Shown here: positions 3,579 through 24,890 of the stretch, piece after piece
Position numbering within the stretch: the first letter of the stretch is position 1
Layout: every line of letters starts with the position of its first letter
Assembly: GCA_028287395.1 (NCBI GenBank)
Contig: JAQBPR010000011.1
Coordinates: forward strand, 1 to 64,000
From: Bacilli bacterium
Lineage (GTDB): Bacteria > Bacillota > Bacilli > Paenibacillales > NBRC-103111
Length of the DNA: 64,000 bases
Direction: 5' to 3'
Notes under the pieces: generated by a model
Seen by the model: only the letters and a program-made list of their open reading frames with translations
Told to the model about the DNA's origin: nothing
Database searches by the model: none
Made by a program: the position numbers and the translations under genes

Positions 3579-3608
3579 TTGACAACAGGCGTTTGGGTTT
3601 GGTATTTT
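3579..3608 (+). promoter_or_regulatory. Putative SigA promoter of the hrcA operon
   Basis: TTGACA (3579-3584), 18 nt spacer, TATTTT (3603-3608), immediately before CIRCE. Confidence 0.5.
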
Positions 3609-3619
3609 TATATTAATGA

Positions 3620-3646
3620 TTAGCACTCATGATGAGTGAGTGCTAA
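3620..3646 (+). promoter_or_regulatory. CIRCE element (HrcA operator)
   Basis: Perfect TTAGCACTC-N9-GAGTGCTAA upstream of hrcA. Confidence 0.97.
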
Positions 3647-3718: not shown

Positions 3719-4744
3719 ATGTTATCGGAGCGTCAACGAATGATTTTGAATGCGATCGTGGATGATTATATTCGTTATGCTGAGCCTATTGGTTCACGCA
3801 GCATTTCTAAACGGGGTGATGTCGGCTTTAGCCCGGCGACGATTCGCAATGAAATGTCCGATTTGGAGGAGCTCGGATTTTTGGAGCAGCCGCATACATC
3901 TGCAGGACGTATTCCTTCTAATAAAGGATATCGCTATTATGTAGATCACCTTGTTCAATATGGCGCTTTATCTACTCATGAATTGGGTGTAATGAAAGGT
4001 TTTTTTGCCGAAAAAATAAATGAAGTGGAACAAGCGGTTCAACAGGTTGCAACTATTCTATCCGGATTGACCAATTATACTTCGATCGTTCTAGGCCCGG
4101 AAGTGTTCAATACAACCTTAAAGCATCTGCAAATTGTGCCGCTTGATGAACGAACCGCTGTAGCTATTATCGTCACAAGTACCGGACATGTAGAGAATAA
4201 AACATTTACACTTCCAGAAGGCATTCCGATGGCGGAAGTGGAGAAAATAACGGCCATCTTAAATGCTAAACTGGTTAATGTCCCAATCGTTCAATTGCGT
4301 TCCAAACTATATAATGAAATCGGTTCAGAGCTCAGTAAATATGTAGATAGATATGAAGAATTGCTGCATGTGGTCGAGGATGTTCTGAAGGCAGACGAGC
4401 AAGATCGCATTTTTCTCGGCGGTGCAACGAATATGCTGACACAGCCGGAATTCAAAGATGTGGATAAGGTAAAGCACATTCTTGACATGCTGGATGAAAA
4501 ACCAAACTTAATGCGAATGTTTACTTCCATGCCGGAAGGGATTCAAGTACGGATTGGAACTGAGAATAGTGTAGAAGCGATTAATAATTGCAGTTTAATT
4601 ACAGCCAGCTATTCGATTGAAGGTCAATTTTTGGGGACGATTGGTATTTTGGGACCTACTCGTATGGAATATGGAAAAGTAATTCGTTTATTAGATTATT
4701 TATCTCGCGATATGTCACTTATTTTAGGTCGATGGTATAAATAG
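3719..4744 (+). CDS. hrcA: Heat-inducible transcription repressor HrcA
   Basis: LSERQRMILNAIVDDYIRYAEPIGSRSISK N-terminus; downstream of CIRCE. Confidence 0.97.
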   Translation: MLSERQRMILNAIVDDYIRYAEPIGSRSISKRGDVGFSPATIRNEMSDLEELGFLEQPHTSAGRIPSNKGYRYYVDHLVQYGALSTHELGVMKGFFAEKINEVEQAVQQVATILSGLTNYTSIVLGPEVFNTTLKHLQIVPLDERTAVAIIVTSTGHVENKTFTLPEGIPMAEVEKITAILNAKLVNVPIVQLRSKLYNEIGSELSKYVDRYEELLHVVEDVLKADEQDRIFLGGATNMLTQPEFKDVDKVKHILDMLDEKPNLMRMFTSMPEGIQVRIGTENSVEAINNCSLITASYSIEGQFLGTIGILGPTRMEYGKVIRLLDYLSRDMSLILGRWYK

Positions 4745-4757
4745 ACGCAGAGAGGAC

Positions 4758-6317
4758 TTGCACTTCATGAGTCAAGCAAAGCAAAGCAATCACGAAGGCG
4801 AAGAACGCTACGCGACATTGCTGAATAACGCTGGCGCCATTCGCGCAATATGCTCCGCAGTTGAAGGTACACTTGGACCTAAAGGTTTGGATACGATGCT
4901 AGTCGGGGCAAATGGCGAAGTGCTGATCACGAATGATGGTGTGACAATACTTGAAAAAATGGACGTTACGCATCCTGCTGCCCGTTTAATGGTGCAAGTG
5001 GCCCACTCTCAGCAAGCAACCGTTGGAGACGGCACTACGACAGCCACAGTGCTTGCAGGTGCGCTGGTCAGTGAAGGCGTTTCTCAAGTGGTTAAAGGTG
5101 TTCCAGTAGCTAAAGTTGTTCGCGGTATGGAACAAGGTATACAAATGGCAATTGAAAGTCTCCAGTCGCGTTCCAGACAAGTGACTGATTTGAATGATCC
5201 GATTCTATACCGTATCGCTTATACAGCAGGACGTGAGCATAAGGATATTGCTGAACTTGTCATTTCAGCAGCACAACTGACGGGTATGGCTAAGCTGAAA
5301 AATGAAGGCGGCTTTCGCTTTGCAGACGCGGTAATAGCAGCTGAAAAAGCGAAAAATGAAGTTTGGTCTGGTATATTGCTAAATAAGAAGCCTTTACATG
5401 CTTTTTTGCAGCCTTTGCCGGATTGCAAGTATATTTTAGTGCTTCAAGACGCTCTCGAGCCGGAATCATTGGATGAAGAAGCTTTAGCGACTGAAAGCGG
5501 CTTTCGCGCATATCAAGAGCTAAGAGAGCAGTTTAAAATGCACTTGGATCGGTTGGTTGCGATGCAAATTGGACTTATTGCCGTTGATCGCGCAGTGGAT
5601 CCTGAAGCAGAGCAGTTTTGCGCAGATCATAGTATCATGCTGCTGCAGCGTCTAACCCGTTCGGAGCTAACGCAATTGTGCGAATATTCCGGTGCGAAGC
5701 CGATTCGACGATCCGCATTGAAAAAACCGCCAACTGAGCTTGTTACGGTACTTGGCGCGGCGGGTAGTATAGTTTATGATGAAAAGCTGGAGCGTGTCCG
5801 AATAAGTCAAGGTGAAGGCGACAAATTGGTAACGATGATTGTCGGTGCCAGTACGCGAGAGATTGTGGGTGAACGCTCACGTATTGCGATGGATGCGGCT
5901 GCTGCTGTACAGGCTGCTTTATGCGGTGGATATTTGCCGGGGGGCGGAGCAGCCGAAATTGCCGCTGCCCATGAGTTGGATCGCTATCGCGAGTCATTAC
6001 TAGGCATGGAGAGCTTCGGTATCGCTGCTGTGGCGCAAGCGCTTCGCAAGCCATTGGCGCAAATTGTCCTGAATGCGGGCTATAATCCGTTGGAAAAGGT
6101 CGAAGAAATCAAGGCGGCCCAAGTGCTTCGGCAAACGGATGTGCTGGGAATAGATTGTGATACAGGCCTTTTGATTGATTGTTTGGAAGCGGGAATAGTG
6201 GATCCAACCCCAGTGAAACTGCACGCTTTGCAAGCTGCTGGTGAAGTGGCGGGCGCTTTGTTGCGTATTCATACGGTAATTAAGATGAAACCGCATCGTT
6301 CTGAAGAATCAGAGTAG
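4758..6317 (+). CDS. Archaeal-type (TCP-1/thermosome-like, group III) chaperonin
   Basis: [68 protein letters not shown] motifs characteristic of TCP-1/cpn60 group II-like chaperonins; TTG at 4758 or ATG at 4767. Confidence 0.9.
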
Positions 6318-6361
6318 ACTAAATTGAAAAGATGGAACTATTTTAAGGAGGTGAATATATC

Positions 6362-6919
6362 TTGAAAGCAAAAGAACAACAAGCCGAAGTCACTGCGGAT
6401 ACAGCAACCGTAGTTGAGGAAACGGAAGCATTTGAAGCCGTGGGTGAAGTGCAAGAGCTTGATGCGCAAGCCATTGAACTAGAAGGGTTACGCAAACTTG
6501 CCGATGAGAACCATGAGCGGTATATGCGCGTTCAGGCTGATTATGATAATTTCCGCCGTCGCTCCCGCCTTGAAAAGGAAGACTTCGCTAAATATGCATC
6601 CTCTAAATTGATTGAGCTGCTGCTGCCGATCGTCGATAATTTTGAACGCGCACTTGCTTCCAGTCAGCAAGTAAAGGATTTCGACGCTATCATAAAAGGA
6701 ATTGAAATGACGGCAAAACAATTGGAACAGGTCTTGACAGAAGAAGGGCTGAAAGCGATTGAATCCGTAGGTCAACCCTTTAATCCGGATTTCCACCAAG
6801 CGATTATGCAAGTTGAATCCGAAGAGCATGATGAAGGCATCATTGTCGAAGAAATTCAAAAAGGCTATATTTTAAAAGATAAAGTGCTTCGTCCCGCATT
6901 AGTTAAAGTAAGCATATAA
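6362..6919 (+). CDS. grpE: Nucleotide exchange factor GrpE
   Basis: RVQADYDNFRRRSRLEKEDFAKYA, FNPDFHQAI; TTG start after AAGGAGGTG. Confidence 0.96.
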   Translation: MKAKEQQAEVTADTATVVEETEAFEAVGEVQELDAQAIELEGLRKLADENHERYMRVQADYDNFRRRSRLEKEDFAKYASSKLIELLLPIVDNFERALASSQQVKDFDAIIKGIEMTAKQLEQVLTEEGLKAIESVGQPFNPDFHQAIMQVESEEHDEGIIVEEIQKGYILKDKVLRPALVKVSI

Positions 6920-6931
6920 ATTAAATTATAG

Positions 6932-8794
<1,863 letters not shown>

Positions 8795-8845: not shown

Positions 8846-8875
8846 TGCTTTGTCAGTTTTGATGGGGGTGTGATT

Positions 8876-10000
8876 GTGAGCAAGCGTGATTATTATGAAG
8901 TACTCGGAGTGGACAAAAATGCTTCTCCAGAGGAAGTTAAAAAATCGTTTCGTAAACTAGCGCGGGAATATCATCCCGATGTGAATAAGGCGGCTAACGC
9001 GGAAGAAAAGTTTAAAGAAGTAAAAGAAGCCTATGACGTGCTCAGCGATGAGCAAAAGCGCGGCGTATATGACCAATACGGACACGTAGACCCGAATCAA
9101 GGTATGGGTGGCGGCGGTTTTGGCGGTCAGGATATGGGCGGCTTTGGCGATATATTCGATATGTTTTTCGGTGGTGGCGGTGGCGGTCGGCGCAATCCGA
9201 ATGCTCCACAGCGCGGAAACGATCTGCAATATTCGATGACAATTGAATTTAAGGAAGCTATTTTTGGTAAAGAACTGGATATTAACATTCCGCGTACGGA
9301 AAATTGCGATAAGTGTCATGGTTCAGGGGCTAAGCCAGGTACAAAACCGGAAACATGTACGGTCTGTAAAGGTTCAGGACAGCAAGAAGTGATTCAAAAT
9401 ACCGCCTTTGGCCGTATCGTCAATCGTCGGGTTTGTTCGGGATGTAACGGACAAGGTCAAATAATCAAAGAAAAATGTACGGAATGTCATGGCGCCGGCA
9501 AAGTCAAAAAACAGCGCAAAATCCATGTGAAAATTCCTGCAGGTGTCGATGAAGGGGCACAATTGCGTGTTTCTGGAGAAGGCGAAGCAGGCACCAAAGG
9601 TGGTCCACCAGGCGATCTGTTTATTGTCCTTCGTGTAAAATCGCATGACTTTTTTGAACGAGAGGGCGATGATGTTTTCTGCGAGGTGCCTTTAACCTTT
9701 GCTCAAGCCGCGCTTGGAGTTGAAATCGAAATTCCTACTTTGACGGAAAAGGTAAAGCTGAAAATCCCAGCGGGTACGCAAACAGGCACTTATTTCCGCT
9801 TAAAAGGCAAAGGAGTTCCTCGCCTTCGCGGCTTTGGACAGGGCGACCAGCAGGTGAAGGTCGTTGTTGTAACTCCAACTAAATTGACCGATGATCAGAA
9901 AGAGCTGCTTCGTCAATTTTCAGGGGATAACGGCGAAGATTCCAGTGAGCATCATGAATCCATTTTCGAACGTATGAAGAAAGCTTTTTTAGGGGATTAA
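8876..10000 (+). CDS. dnaJ: Molecular chaperone DnaJ
   Basis: [18 protein letters not shown], four CxxCxGxG zinc-finger repeats; GTG start (8870 or 8876). Confidence 0.97.
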
Positions 10001-18353: not shown

Positions 18354-19838
18354 TTATGCCGCTGTATGGGTTTGATCTTGTTTTTCGCTTTTGCTATTGC
18401 TATTGCTATTGCGGAAGTAAGAAAGAATCGCAGCAAGGAGCAACAACGCAGCCATAACCCAGAATACAATATGCAAGCCTGTAATAAAGCCAATCATGGA
18501 AGACGAACTGCCATCCAATCCGACCATCGTTCCGGAAAAAATAGCCATCATGGCGTCTTTGGGGATATTGCCTGTAATTATAGGCATGGAGAAAGCGATG
18601 CTGAAGATCATGCCGAGATTAGTCATCATCGATAAAATCCCCGAGGCTTCACCCCGATATTTCGGTCCAGCCGCATTCATTACACTTCCTGTATTGGGTG
18701 AATTAAACAATCCAGTACCAATGCTAATGATAGTCATCCATACCGCTTGAATTAAATATGGGCTGTGTGCACCTGAATTGGCTGCCAGACCAAGAAGCCC
18801 GACCGTGCTGATTAGAAGGCCAATCGTGGCCGGAGCCACTTCCCCAAAGCGGTCCCCAATCCATCCCGATATAGGAGCAAATACCAGCATGCCAATAGCC
18901 AAAGGAATTAGTAAAATACCGGCTTTCAGAGCATCGTAAGCGAGAACTCCTTGGTAATAAAAGATCAGCATGAACATGATCGCCATACGCGCCAATGAAT
19001 TTAATGCCGCCGAGTATACTCCCATTGAGAACCTGCGGTTGAACAGCAAAGGAATATGCAAAAGAGCAGCCGGATGCTTCGTTTCAACAAGAATGAAGAT
19101 AGGAAAGCAAATAACAAATGCCGCAGCTCCTACCCATACGACCGGGGAACTCCAGGATTGCAGTGGCCCCCACGTCAAGGCCAGAAGCAATCCCGAAATG
19201 GAAATGATGTAAGTAAGGAGTCCCCAACTGTCAAATTTCCGACTCGCTGCTTTAGCCGTATCGTCCCTTGATATCCCCATAGCCCAAAGACCCCAAAGAA
19301 TAGCAATGATCCCGAAAGGTACGTTAAACCAGAACGTCCATTGCCATCCGTATGCTGTGGTCAACCATCCACCGAGCACAGGCCCGATAATTTGTCCGAT
19401 GGCGACAACTGTAATATTCACACCCAACGCACGACCAAGTTCGTTTTTGGGAAAAGCATCGGCCACGATCGCCGTACTAAGCGCCATAAGGATAGCTCCC
19501 CCGATTCCCTGTAACACTCGAAACACGATTAACCAAGCCGCGTTGGGCGCAAATCCGCTGATTAATGAAACAATCGTAAAGAAAATAATCCCGAACATAT
19601 AGAGCCGTTTGCGACCTATAATATCAGCAATGCTACCCGCAACCAACGCGGTTAGAGTCATCGCGACCATATATGCCAGCATAATCCACATCGCCTGCAT
19701 CATTGATGCATGAAGCCCCCGAATCAAATCGGGAAGAGCTATGATTAGCGTACTGAAATTCAGTGCTGACAGCAAAGCCCCCAAGCTTGTAACAGAAAGA
19801 ATCCACCATTTTTTATTGTTCTTCTCCAATCTCTCCAC
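18354..19838 (-). CDS. DHA2-type (14-TMS) MFS transporter
   Basis: SIADIIGRKRLYMFGII, VFRVLQGIGGAILMALSTAIV, GPVLGGWLTTAYGWQWTFWFNVPFG. Confidence 0.92.
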   Translation of the reverse strand: MERLEKNNKKWWILSVTSLGALLSALNFSTLIIALPDLIRGLHASMMQAMWIMLAYMVAMTLTALVAGSIADIIGRKRLYMFGIIFFTIVSLISGFAPNAAWLIVFRVLQGIGGAILMALSTAIVADAFPKNELGRALGVNITVVAIGQIIGPVLGGWLTTAYGWQWTFWFNVPFGIIAILWGLWAMGISRDDTAKAASRKFDSWGLLTYIISISGLLLALTWGPLQSWSSPVVWVGAAAFVICFPIFILVETKHPAALLHIPLLFNRRFSMGVYSAALNSLARMAIMFMLIFYYQGVLAYDALKAGILLIPLAIGMLVFAPISGWIGDRFGEVAPATIGLLISTVGLLGLAANSGAHSPYLIQAVWMTIISIGTGLFNSPNTGSVMNAAGPKYRGEASGILSMMTNLGMIFSIAFSMPIITGNIPKDAMMAIFSGTMVGLDGSSSSMIGFITGLHIVFWVMAALLLLAAILSYFRNSNSNSKSEKQDQTHTAA

Positions 19839-19952: not shown

Positions 19953-20620
19953 TCAATAGCAAGATTGATCATGGTGGTATGTTACCGCAACCGTTACTAT
20001 GGCTGAGAAAAATCCGATCAGATCCAGACCTTTCCGCTGCTTCGGGACCAGCTTCGGCACTGCCCAAATGCCTAGTGCCAGACCGGCCAAGCCGAAAGGG
20101 ACCGTTATGAAAAAAATGATCGGCCACCCCCACAACTGGGTCAACCACCCTCCAAGGACGGGGCCGAGCGACAGGCCGATATAGGTCATAATCGCCTGAA
20201 TGCCAAGTACGCGCCCCCGTTGTTCTTCCGGAAACGTAGTCGAAATAAGTGCAGGGCCGACAGATAGGATCATGGATCCGGCAAGCGCCAAAAATCCCCT
20301 CCCCCATAAAAGAGACACGTATTTCCCTGACAACCCGCACAACACGGCCGAACACGTGAAAAGAGCAAAACCGGACAGAAAAATCCGCCGATGTCCCCAC
20401 ACATCGGACAGTTTGCCAACAGGCAGCAGGAACAACGTCAAGACGAGGAGATAAATCAGTACGATCCATTCCGATTGGCTTAGGGTAGGCCTAGTGCCCG
20501 TTGGATCACAGGCAAGACTGTATTGGTGATGCTTGTATTCAGGGACGACAAAAATGTCCCGATCCCGACTGTCATCAGAACATACCAGCGCCGCCGATAA
20601 ACGTTTGTTGATGTGGTCAT
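19953..20620 (-). pseudogene. Frameshifted and 3'-truncated DHA2 MFS transporter
   Basis: ATG at 20620 gives MTTSTNVYRRRWYVLMTVGIGTFLSSLNTSITNTVLPVIQRALGLP* then shifts frame (about 20480-20490) into SQSEWIVLIYLLVLTLFLLPVGKLSDVWGHRR...; stops after about 200 aa of a family normally near 470 aa. Confidence 0.85.
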
Positions 20621-20715: not shown

Positions 20716-21807
20716 TTATTCATTTATTTTGCGAATTTTTGCTGCTAGCAGTAAAAATGCAGGTATAAAAAATCCATGAAACAAACTATAGATTTGATAC
20801 GCTCCCGTTATAAACCAAGCATATTGAGCCGTATTGGGATGAACGATTAAAGATAAAGCGGTAACTAATATTCCATAAGGAAGAATGGTTACACGATAAC
20901 TTTTCAAATTGAAAAGCTGAGCCGATGCGAGGTTTGCTGCATAAAAACAAAATGACAATTTTACAAAAATCGTCATAATCCAAATACCCATAATTAGAAC
21001 TTCCACACGCTCAAAAAAAATACCGATCTTTATTTCTTTAGCAACATCAAATACAGGAAAGGTACTTCTTGCTGTGATGTCCACCCCTAAAACGGATATC
21101 GAAATAATAACGATCAGAGTAGCGAGTAACGCTGTACTGATAATAAATAGGGTAAAATACTTTTTAATTTTATTCTGTCGATCAACAAACGGAAAAATCA
21201 TCAAAAATACAACTAACTCGCTGATTGGGAATCCGAGCAAAGGATACATACCTTTAACTGGAGCTTGCCAACCATCAGGTAATATAGGTAATAATTTCGA
21301 CAAATGGATGTCCTTTAACAACAGAATTGTGGTAATAATAAAAATGATGATTACCCAAGGAAAAAATAGTTCACTCGATCTTGCGATCACCTCAAGTCCC
21401 AAATAAGCAGCATAAATGACAGAAAGCATAAAAATGATATGAACAAACTCCATTGGTGTCTGTATTAAAACATTGGTTGTAATAAAATCTCCTACGTTAT
21501 GAAGCACCAATGCACTAAGGTATAGAAAGTACAATACATATACGAAACCAACGATTTTACCGAGCCATTTCCCCAAAATTCGTTCACTATATTGAATGAT
21601 GCTTTGCTTAGGATATTTCTTAGATAAGTGGACCCATAAAAAAATAAATGAAATATCCACGATGATGCCAAGCAAAACTGAAATCCACGCATCTTGTTTC
21701 GCAATGGAAACGATAATGGAGGGCAAGATTAAAACAGCATTTCCTAAAGCAAACATAAAAACAAGGATACCAAATTGTAAAGGTGCAATCTTGCCATTTT
21801 CAATCAT
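20716..21807 (-). CDS. Spore germination permease, GerAB/GerKB family
   Basis: IENGKIAPLQFGILVFMFALGNAVLILPS; about 10 hydrophobic segments; adjacent to GerAA/GerAC. Confidence 0.92.
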   Translation of the reverse strand: MIENGKIAPLQFGILVFMFALGNAVLILPSIIVSIAKQDAWISVLLGIIVDISFIFLWVHLSKKYPKQSIIQYSERILGKWLGKIVGFVYVLYFLYLSALVLHNVGDFITTNVLIQTPMEFVHIIFMLSVIYAAYLGLEVIARSSELFFPWVIIIFIITTILLLKDIHLSKLLPILPDGWQAPVKGMYPLLGFPISELVVFLMIFPFVDRQNKIKKYFTLFIISTALLATLIVIISISVLGVDITARSTFPVFDVAKEIKIGIFFERVEVLIMGIWIMTIFVKLSFCFYAANLASAQLFNLKSYRVTILPYGILVTALSLIVHPNTAQYAWFITGAYQIYSLFHGFFIPAFLLLAAKIRKINE

Positions 21808-22049
21808 GAAGATCCTCCTTTAATCCAAAGAACAATGGGTTTAACAATAGGCTCCAACAATTTTCCAATCACTTCACTTGGAGATGGGATGGGAAGATGT
21901 AGAGCAACACCAATATAGAGCAGCACTGCCAAAAGCAATGACGATGATAAAACAACCATTTCTTTATTCTTTTTTTGTTTAAATAACAATTTCCCTTCCC
22001 AAAAGAAAATAGCAATACCAGCAGCAATTACTCCCATAACACTGACCAT
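21804..22049 (-). CDS. Small two-TM protein in ger operon (D-subunit-like)
   Basis: 81 aa, two hydrophobic segments, overlaps the gerAB-like start by 4 nt. Confidence 0.7.
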   Translation of the reverse strand: MVSVMGVIAAGIAIFFWEGKLLFKQKKNKEMVVLSSSLLLAVLLYIGVALHLPIPSPSEVIGKLLEPIVKPIVLWIKGGSS

Positions 22050-22072
22050 GCTTTCTTACTCCTTTTCATTCC

Positions 22073-23296
22073 CTATGTATTAGTCATATAATAGGATTTA
22101 TTTCTTGTTCCATCTCTTCTTATTTCCGTATCCACTTCGATTTGAACAGGGATTTTAGAGAAAAGATCATTCCAATTGGTCTTGTTTTTTTTCCAATATG
22201 CCGGATTCGCTTTATATACAGCATCAGCAAAACCGAATATATCCGTCTTCAATTTTTGCGCTTTTTTCACCGCATCAAGTATCTCTTTTTTGATCTGTTC
22301 TTCTGTTCCTTTCCCTAATTGAGTAAAAGTTTCTTTGTCGGTTAAATCAATGTCAGGGCATAAGCTCTCCCCTATATTTGCTTCTTGATCGATACGGATC
22401 ACGATGAATGGTTGTCCTTGCTGAAACTTCGCCTTCATTCTTGTGGAGGAATGTATGACTTCAACGGCTATGTTCCCTTCATTCTTACAAGGAATGTTGA
22501 TGACCGTATTTTTAATTTTATCTTGAGTCCATGCAATTCCCCTTGATTCCTTCGGATCAAAAAAATCAACTAGCTTTTCATCCTTAAACACCGCCATGCT
22601 GTTTATTTTTAAAGTCGTTAGAGGATCGATTTTTTCCACGTTTTGTTTGCTGGCGCCCATTTTTAAGTCTCCTACAATTTCAATACTTCCCGCCGCGAAT
22701 TGTTTTTTTTTCGAACCGATGCTCTCGATAATATCTTTGACACTCACGCCATAAGAGGTTCCTAAGTTTTTTTCAGCGTTCTCAACGGATTTGTGTATTT
22801 TGGCTCCGGGGATCTTTTCGATTGGTGTCGTAGTTTTTAGCACATCAGAAGCTCTGGCGCCTTTAGCTACGACAACATAAAAATCCGTACGAACCTCAGG
22901 ATCACGTTCAATAAATTCAAATAATGGACTTACTCCTTCACGTGCCAGTTTCTCGCCAATTACAAGCACTTGATTATGTGAAAAATATAATTTTCTTGAA
23001 GTTTTATTGGCGATTTTCCGCACAGCTTCAAAAATCGTCCGCCCTGTTTCGCTATACGTAGTAACAGTACTTTTACCACCTCCGCCGATCTTACCTCCTC
23101 CCATTGATACTTCAGCAGGGTTTACCACTTGAACTGTAACTTGTATTTCATGTCCCTCACCTTTATCCATGCCCATTGCTATAACGATTGAAAGCTCATC
23201 CAAATATTTAATATCCCAGCATCCCACCAAAGTAGTGGAGAACATTATCATCAAAATTATAATAAAGATTTTTTTGCGCATCGCATCATTCTCCAT
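22073..23296 (-). CDS. Ger(x)C family germinant receptor lipoprotein (GerAC-like)
   Basis: Lipobox-like STTLVGCWDIKYLDELSIVIAMGMDK. Confidence 0.94.
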   Translation of the reverse strand: MENDAMRKKIFIIILMIMFSTTLVGCWDIKYLDELSIVIAMGMDKGEGHEIQVTVQVVNPAEVSMGGGKIGGGGKSTVTTYSETGRTIFEAVRKIANKTSRKLYFSHNQVLVIGEKLAREGVSPLFEFIERDPEVRTDFYVVVAKGARASDVLKTTTPIEKIPGAKIHKSVENAEKNLGTSYGVSVKDIIESIGSKKKQFAAGSIEIVGDLKMGASKQNVEKIDPLTTLKINSMAVFKDEKLVDFFDPKESRGIAWTQDKIKNTVINIPCKNEGNIAVEVIHSSTRMKAKFQQGQPFIVIRIDQEANIGESLCPDIDLTDKETFTQLGKGTEEQIKKEILDAVKKAQKLKTDIFGFADAVYKANPAYWKKNKTNWNDLFSKIPVQIEVDTEIRRDGTRNKSYYMTNT

Positions 23297-24890
23297 CTAG
23301 TCTAGGATTATCTCCGGGCGGTTTTTCCGGCTTCTGATCATTGCCTTGGCGCACTTGATCTTCACTTAAAAAAAGCGGACGCGTATTCATAGCCCAATGC
23401 GGGAAACGAAATAGAGCATCCTTTTGCTCTTTTGCCATAAATGGTGCAAAAGGTTTTAAGTATGGAATGCCAAATGATCTTATGCTGGCTAAATGCAACA
23501 CAAGAATGATTAACCCTACAGCAATTCCGTACATCCCTAAAGTACCCGCAAGAATTAAAAAAACAAAACGCAGCAATCGTACAGCGATCGCTATACTTAC
23601 TGAAGGGAGAACAAAATTGGTGATGGCGGTGAACGAAACGACGATAACCATAGCAGGTGAAACAATGCCGGCTTCCACTGCGGCTTGTCCAATGACCAAT
23701 GCCCCTACAATCGAGATGGTATTTCCTACAGCACTTGGCATCCGGACCCCGGCTTCACGCAGGACTTCAAATACGATCTCCATCAAAAAAGCTTCCACGA
23801 TGGGCGGAAAAGGAACTCCTTCACGCTGGACAGCCAAATGCAGCATTAAAGAGGTAGGTATCATCTCCTGATGAAAAGTTGCAACCGCCACATAAAGCGA
23901 AGGAAAGAGTAATGCAATAAAAAATGAAACAAACCGCAAAATTCGCAAAAAAGTACCGAAATCAAAACGCTGATAGTAATCTTCCGCCGATTGTAAAAAG
24001 CTGCTCAGAACAACGGGGACCAGTAATACAAAAGGTGTTCCATCAATCAAAATAGCCACCCTTCCTTCAAGCAAACCGGCAGCTACAACATCAGGTCTTT
24101 CGCTGTTAAAAACGGTAGGGAACGGAGTCCATATTTCATCTTGGATCAATTCTTCAATATATCCGGATTCAAGGATTCCATCGATTTTAATTCGATCCAA
24201 ACGGTTTCTTACTTCCTGAACGATCTCGTCATTGGCGATTCCTTTGATATACATGATACCGACTTGGGTTTGGGTCACTTCACCAATGGTTCTTTCTTCC
24301 AGCCATAATTTCGGGCTCTTTATTTTTCTTCGAATCAAGGAAGTATTTGTACGAATCGATTCCGAAAAACCCTCTTTCGGACCGCGGATGACCGTTTGCG
24401 TGGATGGTTCAGTGACGCCTCGATTTTCGCCTCCCTTCGTTGCGGCGGCAATCGCTTTATGACAACCGTTGAAAAGCAAAACCGAATCTCCGGACAATAT
24501 CGCAGGAAAGAGATGCTTCCAATCTGAAATTTCTCTTACATCTCCAAAAGTTAATAATCGTTCTTTTACTACTTGAAGTATTTTATCTGTACCTATATCT
24601 TTATCCAGGTTTACAGCCTCATCTTGAAGATGCATCAAGTTTTTTATAATAAAATCAGATAGGGTCTTTTGGTCACACAACCCATCCGTAAATACAGCTG
24701 CGGCATTAATTTTTCCACCTACTTGAAATTCCCTAATGATTAGATCATTACTGTTTCCCAGTTCGGATTGGATGGTTGCAATATTGCTTTTTAAATCATC
24801 ATGAAAAGACTGGTTCTGAGATGGTTGCGAGTCTTGACTTTCCTGGATTTCGGCACGAGATGTTTTCTTTTTTAGGCGCTTTGGAAACAT
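23286..24890 (-). CDS. Spore germination protein GerAA/GerKA family
   Basis: GRVAILIDGTPFVLLVPVV, ESGYIEELI, RRKIKSPKLWLEERTIG. Confidence 0.95.
   Translation of the reverse strand: MFPKRLKKKTSRAEIQESQDSQPSQNQSFHDDLKSNIATIQSELGNSNDLIIREFQVGGKINAAAVFTDGLCDQKTLSDFIIKNLMHLQDEAVNLDKDIGTDKILQVVKERLLTFGDVREISDWKHLFPAILSGDSVLLFNGCHKAIAAATKGGENRGVTEPSTQTVIRGPKEGFSESIRTNTSLIRRKIKSPKLWLEERTIGEVTQTQVGIMYIKGIANDEIVQEVRNRLDRIKIDGILESGYIEELIQDEIWTPFPTVFNSERPDVVAAGLLEGRVAILIDGTPFVLLVPVVLSSFLQSAEDYYQRFDFGTFLRILRFVSFFIALLFPSLYVAVATFHQEMIPTSLMLHLAVQREGVPFPPIVEAFLMEIVFEVLREAGVRMPSAVGNTISIVGALVIGQAAVEAGIVSPAMVIVVSFTAITNFVLPSVSIAIAVRLLRFVFLILAGTLGMYGIAVGLIILVLHLASIRSFGIPYLKPFAPFMAKEQKDALFRFPHWAMNTRPLFLSEDQVRQGNDQKPEKPPGDNPRLDGE

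Follow-up and report, generated by a model that had tools for sequence, protein, structure and literature searches.

The 64,000-nucleotide stretch of DNA that we analysed, called the window here, contains a chaperonin gene between hrcA and grpE. The hrcA, chaperonin, grpE, dnaK and dnaJ genes all run in the same direction behind a promoter-like site and a perfect CIRCE, and terminator-like sites across the operon region occurred at chance level. The features of the locus are as follows.

3579..3608, + strand: sigma-A-type promoter-like sequence TTGACA-18 nt-TATTTT just 5′ of the CIRCE, found by scanning for the consensus (10 of 12 matches, with TG preceding the second hexamer; no more than a consensus match)
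3620..3646, + strand: CIRCE operator TTAGCACTC-N9-GAGTGCTAA, predicted HrcA site (0 mismatches, 0 expected in shuffles)
3719..4744, + strand: hrcA, heat-shock repressor (Pfam HrcA, 236 bits)
4750..4755, + strand: GAGAGG, probable ribosome-binding site for the chaperonin, from reading the sequence
4767..6317, + strand: Group III chaperonin, 516 amino acids (profiles, structures, residues and tree)
4935..4937, + strand: codon of D57 (D56 in Ch-CPN), catalytic aspartate (alignment; role from PMC5635000)
5025..5042, + strand: codons of the GDGTTT phosphate loop, residues 87-92 (alignment)
5232..5234, + strand: codon of R156 (R155 in Ch-CPN), the Group III gamma-phosphate arginine (alignment; role from PMC5635000)
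5484..5534, + strand: lid tip codons, residues 240-256, with L240, F246, Y249 and F256 equivalent to L237, F243, Y246 and F253 of Ch-CPN (alignment)
5892..5894, + strand: codon of D376 (D373 in Ch-CPN), second catalytic aspartate (alignment)
6362..6919, + strand: grpE (Pfam GrpE, 169 bits)
6947..8794, + strand: dnaK, an ORF with an 80-95% match to dnaK of syntenic loci in the order
8870..10000, + strand: dnaJ, from its ORF and synteny

The chaperonin ORF (4758-6317, + strand) is open throughout and encodes 519 amino acids when counted from the TTG at 4758, the start used in a first-pass annotation of this DNA. The ORF itself and the distances given there were confirmed: hrcA ends at 4744 and grpE starts at 6362, leaving gaps of 13 or 22 nt (from TTG or ATG) upstream and 44 nt downstream. 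The start was not, as the chaperonin most likely begins at the ATG at 4767, giving 516 residues. This ATG is preferred because GAGAGG, the sole plausible ribosome-binding site that we could read in the sequence, lies 11 nt from it and only 2 nt from the TTG, and because a same-genus homologue starts at the same residue. Every protein motif quoted in the first-pass annotation is present in the ORF, and the perfect CIRCE that it placed upstream is the one at 3620-3646.

The window protein matched Pfam Cpn60_TCP1 with 339 bits. In a comparison of GroEL and TCP-1 profiles, the NCBIfam thermosome models scored 242-246 bits and the GroEL models at most 172, a lead of about 70 bits or more for the thermosome models; all of these scores were under the curated cut-offs, as expected for a third chaperonin group. 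When all solved structures were searched by sequence, the top match was 9rwq, the resurrected ancestral Group III chaperonin ACIII, followed by 5x9u, Ch-CPN of Carboxydothermus hydrogenoformans (2.7e-120), then by an ancestral Group II protein and by natural thermosomes from 1e-54. The chain name of 9rwq reads Group II; the entry title and the accompanying paper (PMC12696368) give Group III. The ACIII structure is a double eight-fold ring of a reconstructed, not natural, protein in which the apical domains were not modelled. A structure search with the AlphaFold model of the window protein (pLDDT 88) placed Ch-CPN closest, with 5x9v and 5x9u at the top (E 2e-45 and 5e-42; TM 0.87-0.91) and archaeal chaperonin and CCT chains ranked below them.

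Group III chaperonins are recognized by D56, D373 and R155 (Ch-CPN numbering), GDGTTT, the lid hydrophobics and the lack of a nucleotide-sensing insertion (PMC5635000). Our alignment showed that the window protein keeps D57, D88, R156, D376, GDGTTT at G87-T92 and all of the lid hydrophobics (L240, F246, Y249 and F256), with no variation at the R156 and D376 positions among 154 sequences. The Group II lid insertion is absent, as is the 6-residue nucleotide-sensing insertion of Group II, which would lie beside R156 and which is present in 9rwp, 1a6d and Mm-cpn against a Group III profile. The lid tyrosine has been called strictly conserved among Group III proteins, yet the position of Y249 (Y246 in Ch-CPN) varied across the 154 sequences (Y in 108, Q in 34, F in 6 and H in 5), with many Paenibacillus among those lacking Y. 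Four other Group III chaperonins (L052, L077, L122 and L127) have NAG for NDG at the D56 site of Ch-CPN while retaining the R155 and D373 equivalents; they are possibly slow ATPases.

We also built a quick tree from 50 Group III, only 6 Group II and 8 Group I (GroEL) sequences, in which Group III formed one side of a branch with an SH-aLRT value of 93 that was not starred. The window protein nested with its genus (100), order (100) and class (99), and GroEL formed a separate, fully supported clade. Group I identity is ruled out by the tree, the profile scores and the solved-structure matches, and it is the other chaperonin copy in the genome that groES adjoins. A Group II assignment is contradicted by the absence of both the nucleotide-sensing loop and the lid insertion and by a tree position outside the archaeal clade. 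Sequence and predicted structure, together with the diagnostic residues and the phylogeny, upheld the assignment to Group III rather than GroEL that had been made from the sequence alone; neither a placement within GroEL nor a loss of ATPase residues was found. Computation establishes the Group III identity of the protein, the position of its gene in the operon and its catalytic residues.

Among known systems, the closest is Ch-CPN (PDB 5x9u/5x9v, An et al. 2017, PMC5635000), which has the D56, D373 and R155 equivalents and the lid hydrophobics in common with the window protein, and also the predicted fold and the lack of a nucleotide-sensing insertion. The operon positions are alike too, as loci L073 and L057, whose protein reads like Ch-CPN, have the order hrcA-cpn-grpE-dnaK-dnaJ found in the window. 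The two proteins are about 42% identical, and the host is a Paenibacillus relative in one case and the thermophile of the prototype in the other. Archaeal thermosomes and Mm-cpn share the overall fold and built-in lid with the window protein but differ in carrying the 6-residue and lid insertions (~30% identity). GroEL, encoded on contig C120 of the same genome, belongs to the same superfamily and likewise lies behind a CIRCE; unlike the window protein, it has no built-in lid and uses GroES as a partner.

The kind of chaperonin, its operon context and the idea of a DnaK relay have all been published, and the identity is not new. Group III chaperonins were described from "only a few" bacteria (PMC5220055) or from 195 species, mostly from extreme environments, with a thermophile as the model (PMC5635000). 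A full-text literature search of partial coverage, which did not include the founding Techtmann and Robb 2010 paper, returned no paper naming Paenibacillus, thermosome and chaperonin together.

The genome contains a separate groES-groEL pair on C120, the check for which had been proposed in the first-pass annotation, and this pair has a near-perfect CIRCE of its own with one mismatch. A prefoldin beta-type subunit was not found in the genome, of which the assembly is 89% complete. HrcA/CIRCE control of the chaperonin operon, also proposed earlier, is supported at the level of sequence by the perfect CIRCE and by conserved synteny, and the description of the host as a spore-former agrees with gerA-type germination genes at 20716-24890. 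Near the latter, a second, short MFS-like ORF (19953-20469, - strand) beside a full-length MFS transporter gene (18354-19838, - strand) probably represents a transporter gene that is split or incomplete.

We determined how widely the gene occurs. Group III matches were present in 92 of the 105 genomes of the window's family, two split copies included, and only in 6 of 111 genomes sampled elsewhere in the order. At higher ranks, 49 of 250 genomes sampled in the class and 127 of 398 in the phylum, about a third, had a match (the window's genome is counted in both). The gene is dispensable, being absent from 13 of the 105 family genomes and from most genomes elsewhere in the order. When presence and absence were mapped on the order's HrcA tree, parsimony required 10 changes, and branches with strong support made at least 5 of these unavoidable; such counts alone cannot tell gain from loss. 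Since the chaperonin tree agrees with taxonomy and the position of the gene is nearly fixed, losses are the best reading of these changes. No gene remnant was found between hrcA and grpE in 24 genomes without the gene, where these two genes are adjacent with a gap of about 27-237 nt.

The window protein was 81% identical to its homologue in the genus, 55-68% identical within the order and 41-56% across the class and phylum, and the nearest named relatives were Paenibacillus species (65-68%). Descent of the chaperonin looks vertical. In Mantel tests, chaperonin distances correlated with those of HrcA, DnaK and DnaJ (r about 0.47-0.48, a value that none of 999 permutations reached). The latter three correlated more strongly among themselves (r 0.82-0.84), and the chaperonin therefore evolves less evenly. 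Purifying selection in close relatives is likewise established by computation: dN/dS of the chaperonin was 0.009-0.056 in twelve close within-family pairs, similar to hrcA. The estimate applies to these relatives, as the comparison of the window with G013 was saturated and gave no dN/dS value for the chaperonin. Two MAGs labelled Armatimonadota (L147 and L148) had a Group III chaperonin in the order hrcA-cpn-grpE, with no CIRCE and no dnaK detected beside it; Group III may not be confined to Bacillota. A search of plasmids returned haloarchaeal thermosomes and one GroEL (L162).

Thermosome models outscore GroEL models on the window protein, and an old archaea-to-Firmicutes transfer has been proposed for Group III as a whole (PMC12696368), so we considered whether an archaeal thermosome had been acquired recently by horizontal transfer. 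The archaeal proteins that we found were at most 32% identical to the window protein, far from the values within the genus, order, class and phylum, and the tree and the nearly fixed synteny exclude a recent transfer, which we regard as extremely improbable; a very old transfer is compatible with the data. The gene is best read as an old inheritance of Bacillota that was repeatedly lost and not as a recent archaeal import.

Broken chaperonin copies occur in relatives G192 and G078, and the gene is split in a third genome. The G078 sequence is likely to contain errors because its hrcA is also broken. At L067 (G003) a split chaperonin lies at 5001-6214, and the break translates to VSYTHLDGYKR, which we take to be typical sequencing-adapter sequence; this split is probably a misassembly and not a pseudogene. 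At L066 (G192) a frameshift lies near residue 300 in an otherwise normal operon, reflecting either decay or a sequencing error. We did not adopt the broken copies as a sign of decay. The G192 and G078 copies, and the fact that GroEL models also score on the window protein, are what could be said for a GroEL paralogue or a non-functional passenger ORF. That reading has almost no probability in our view: GroEL forms a separate clade, the ATPase residues are kept, and the dN/dS of 0.01-0.06 in relatives rules out a passenger ORF.

Operon organisation was then compared across genomes. Each of the 40 loci retrieved from across the phylum had hrcA-cpn-grpE-dnaK-dnaJ with a perfect CIRCE. The full gene order was present in 62 of 80 named loci, contig ends cutting about half of the remainder, and in 78 of the 80 the operon gene upstream of the chaperonin was hrcA, about 1.8 kb away at L156. 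The two loci without an upstream hrcA were L116, at a contig edge, and L117, a loner. In the latter, a MAG, the Group III chaperonin has none of its usual neighbours within 6 kb, and dnaK and grpE are elsewhere in the genome. Whereas the window has a 22-nt gap between hrcA and the chaperonin gene, in several family members the two genes overlap by 4 nt (chaperonin start and hrcA stop), which points to one message.

Six genomes, all metagenome-assembled, departed from this arrangement. In L121, L125 and L143 (Ca. Fermentithermobacillaceae MAGs) and in L133 and L146 (other Bacillota MAGs), the order was CIRCE-hrcA-cpn-dnaJ, grpE and full-length dnaK being absent from the operon; the CIRCE of L133 and L146 had one mismatch. 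The L121 operon spans 4767-8729, and its chaperonin stop overlaps the dnaJ start. In L112 the order was CIRCE (two mismatches)-hrcA-cpn-dnaJ with an Hsp70 fragment of roughly 80 residues between cpn and dnaJ. This fragment (L112:7640-7925) is bounded by stops and looks like a relic of dnaK in its old position; full-length dnaK-grpE is on another contig. Genome-wide absence of DnaK is rejected for five of the six genomes, in which full-length dnaK and grpE were found at another locus with no CIRCE nearby. The relocated pair lay beside another dnaJ in three genomes, two of which also had clpB there (L222 and L223), and beside a MerR-family regulator in two. The MerR-flanked neighbourhood resembles the HspR-type dnaK-grpE-dnaJ clusters of Actinobacteria, with the HspR identity putative. 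Full-length dnaK and grpE were not found in G826, the genome of L121, a 1.5-Mb MAG that may be incomplete. The constant companion of the chaperonin is HrcA and then mostly DnaJ, and DnaK can leave.

We conclude with high confidence that the gene encodes a Group III chaperonin, predicted to form a self-lidded folding chamber, in an HrcA/CIRCE operon with GrpE, DnaK and DnaJ. From general knowledge of HrcA, stress would release the repressor from CIRCE and induce the chaperonin together with the Hsp70 machine, and the second CIRCE would allow GroESL to be induced at the same time. By analogy with the Ch-CPN structure (PMC5635000), sixteen subunits would form two stacked rings of eight, each with its own chamber, and a helical lid built into the subunit would close the chamber with no need of GroES. 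The lid tips would bind exposed hydrophobic segments of unfolded proteins; ATP binding would shut the lid and hydrolysis and release would reopen it, clients being held and refolded inside. Clients may also be handed over physically from DnaK/DnaJ to the chaperonin.

That the gene lies between hrcA and grpE because DnaK passes its clients directly to the Group III lid, a relay that would add to this mechanism, was suggested by analogy with Hsc70-CCT (PMC5635000, PMC5220055). The near-universal co-operon arrangement and the failure to find a prefoldin subunit in the 89% complete assembly are in its favour, but shared regulation alone explains the linkage. Moreover, the operons of L121, L125, L143, L133, L146 and L112 kept the chaperonin without grpE or full-length dnaK, and dnaK-grpE elsewhere had no nearby CIRCE in five of the six genomes. 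These lineages indicate that co-transcription with dnaK is not required and weaken the direct Hsp70 link, which was raised in the first-pass annotation and is speculative; we consider the relay possible but rather doubtful. Alternatively, the chaperonin and DnaK may act independently, the gene being placed only for shared HrcA regulation. The presence of hrcA upstream in 78 of 80 named loci and the lineages with dnaK at another locus argue for independence, although a physical partnership would equally favour placement in one operon and dnaJ is still downstream where dnaK has gone. We give this reading a little less than an even chance. The CIRCE-hrcA-cpn-dnaJ lineages, including L112 with its dnaK fragment, show that DnaK can separate while the chaperonin stays. 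On a more general proposal, Group III would be a core HrcA-regulon member of Bacillota that works with DnaJ or with no co-chaperone at all, and not with DnaK; we put this forward as an unlikely but legitimate conjecture.

The window shows an archaeal-style lidded chaperonin in the heat-shock operon of a spore-forming Paenibacillus relative, beside a normal GroEL/GroES. Group III chaperonins are an old, common and repeatedly lost component of Bacillota and not a rarity of a few thermophiles; their breadth, HrcA linkage, repeated absence and dnaK-free operons seem to have been under-appreciated so far. The proposed Hsp70-to-chaperonin relay can be put to the test in lineages whose dnaK lies outside the operon. 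The recurrent absence of the gene, with at least 5 changes in one order, provides matched pairs for the role of a third chaperonin beside GroESL, and its presence in about a third of the sampled phylum genomes and most of a Paenibacillus-rich family should make genetics feasible in culturable Paenibacillus.
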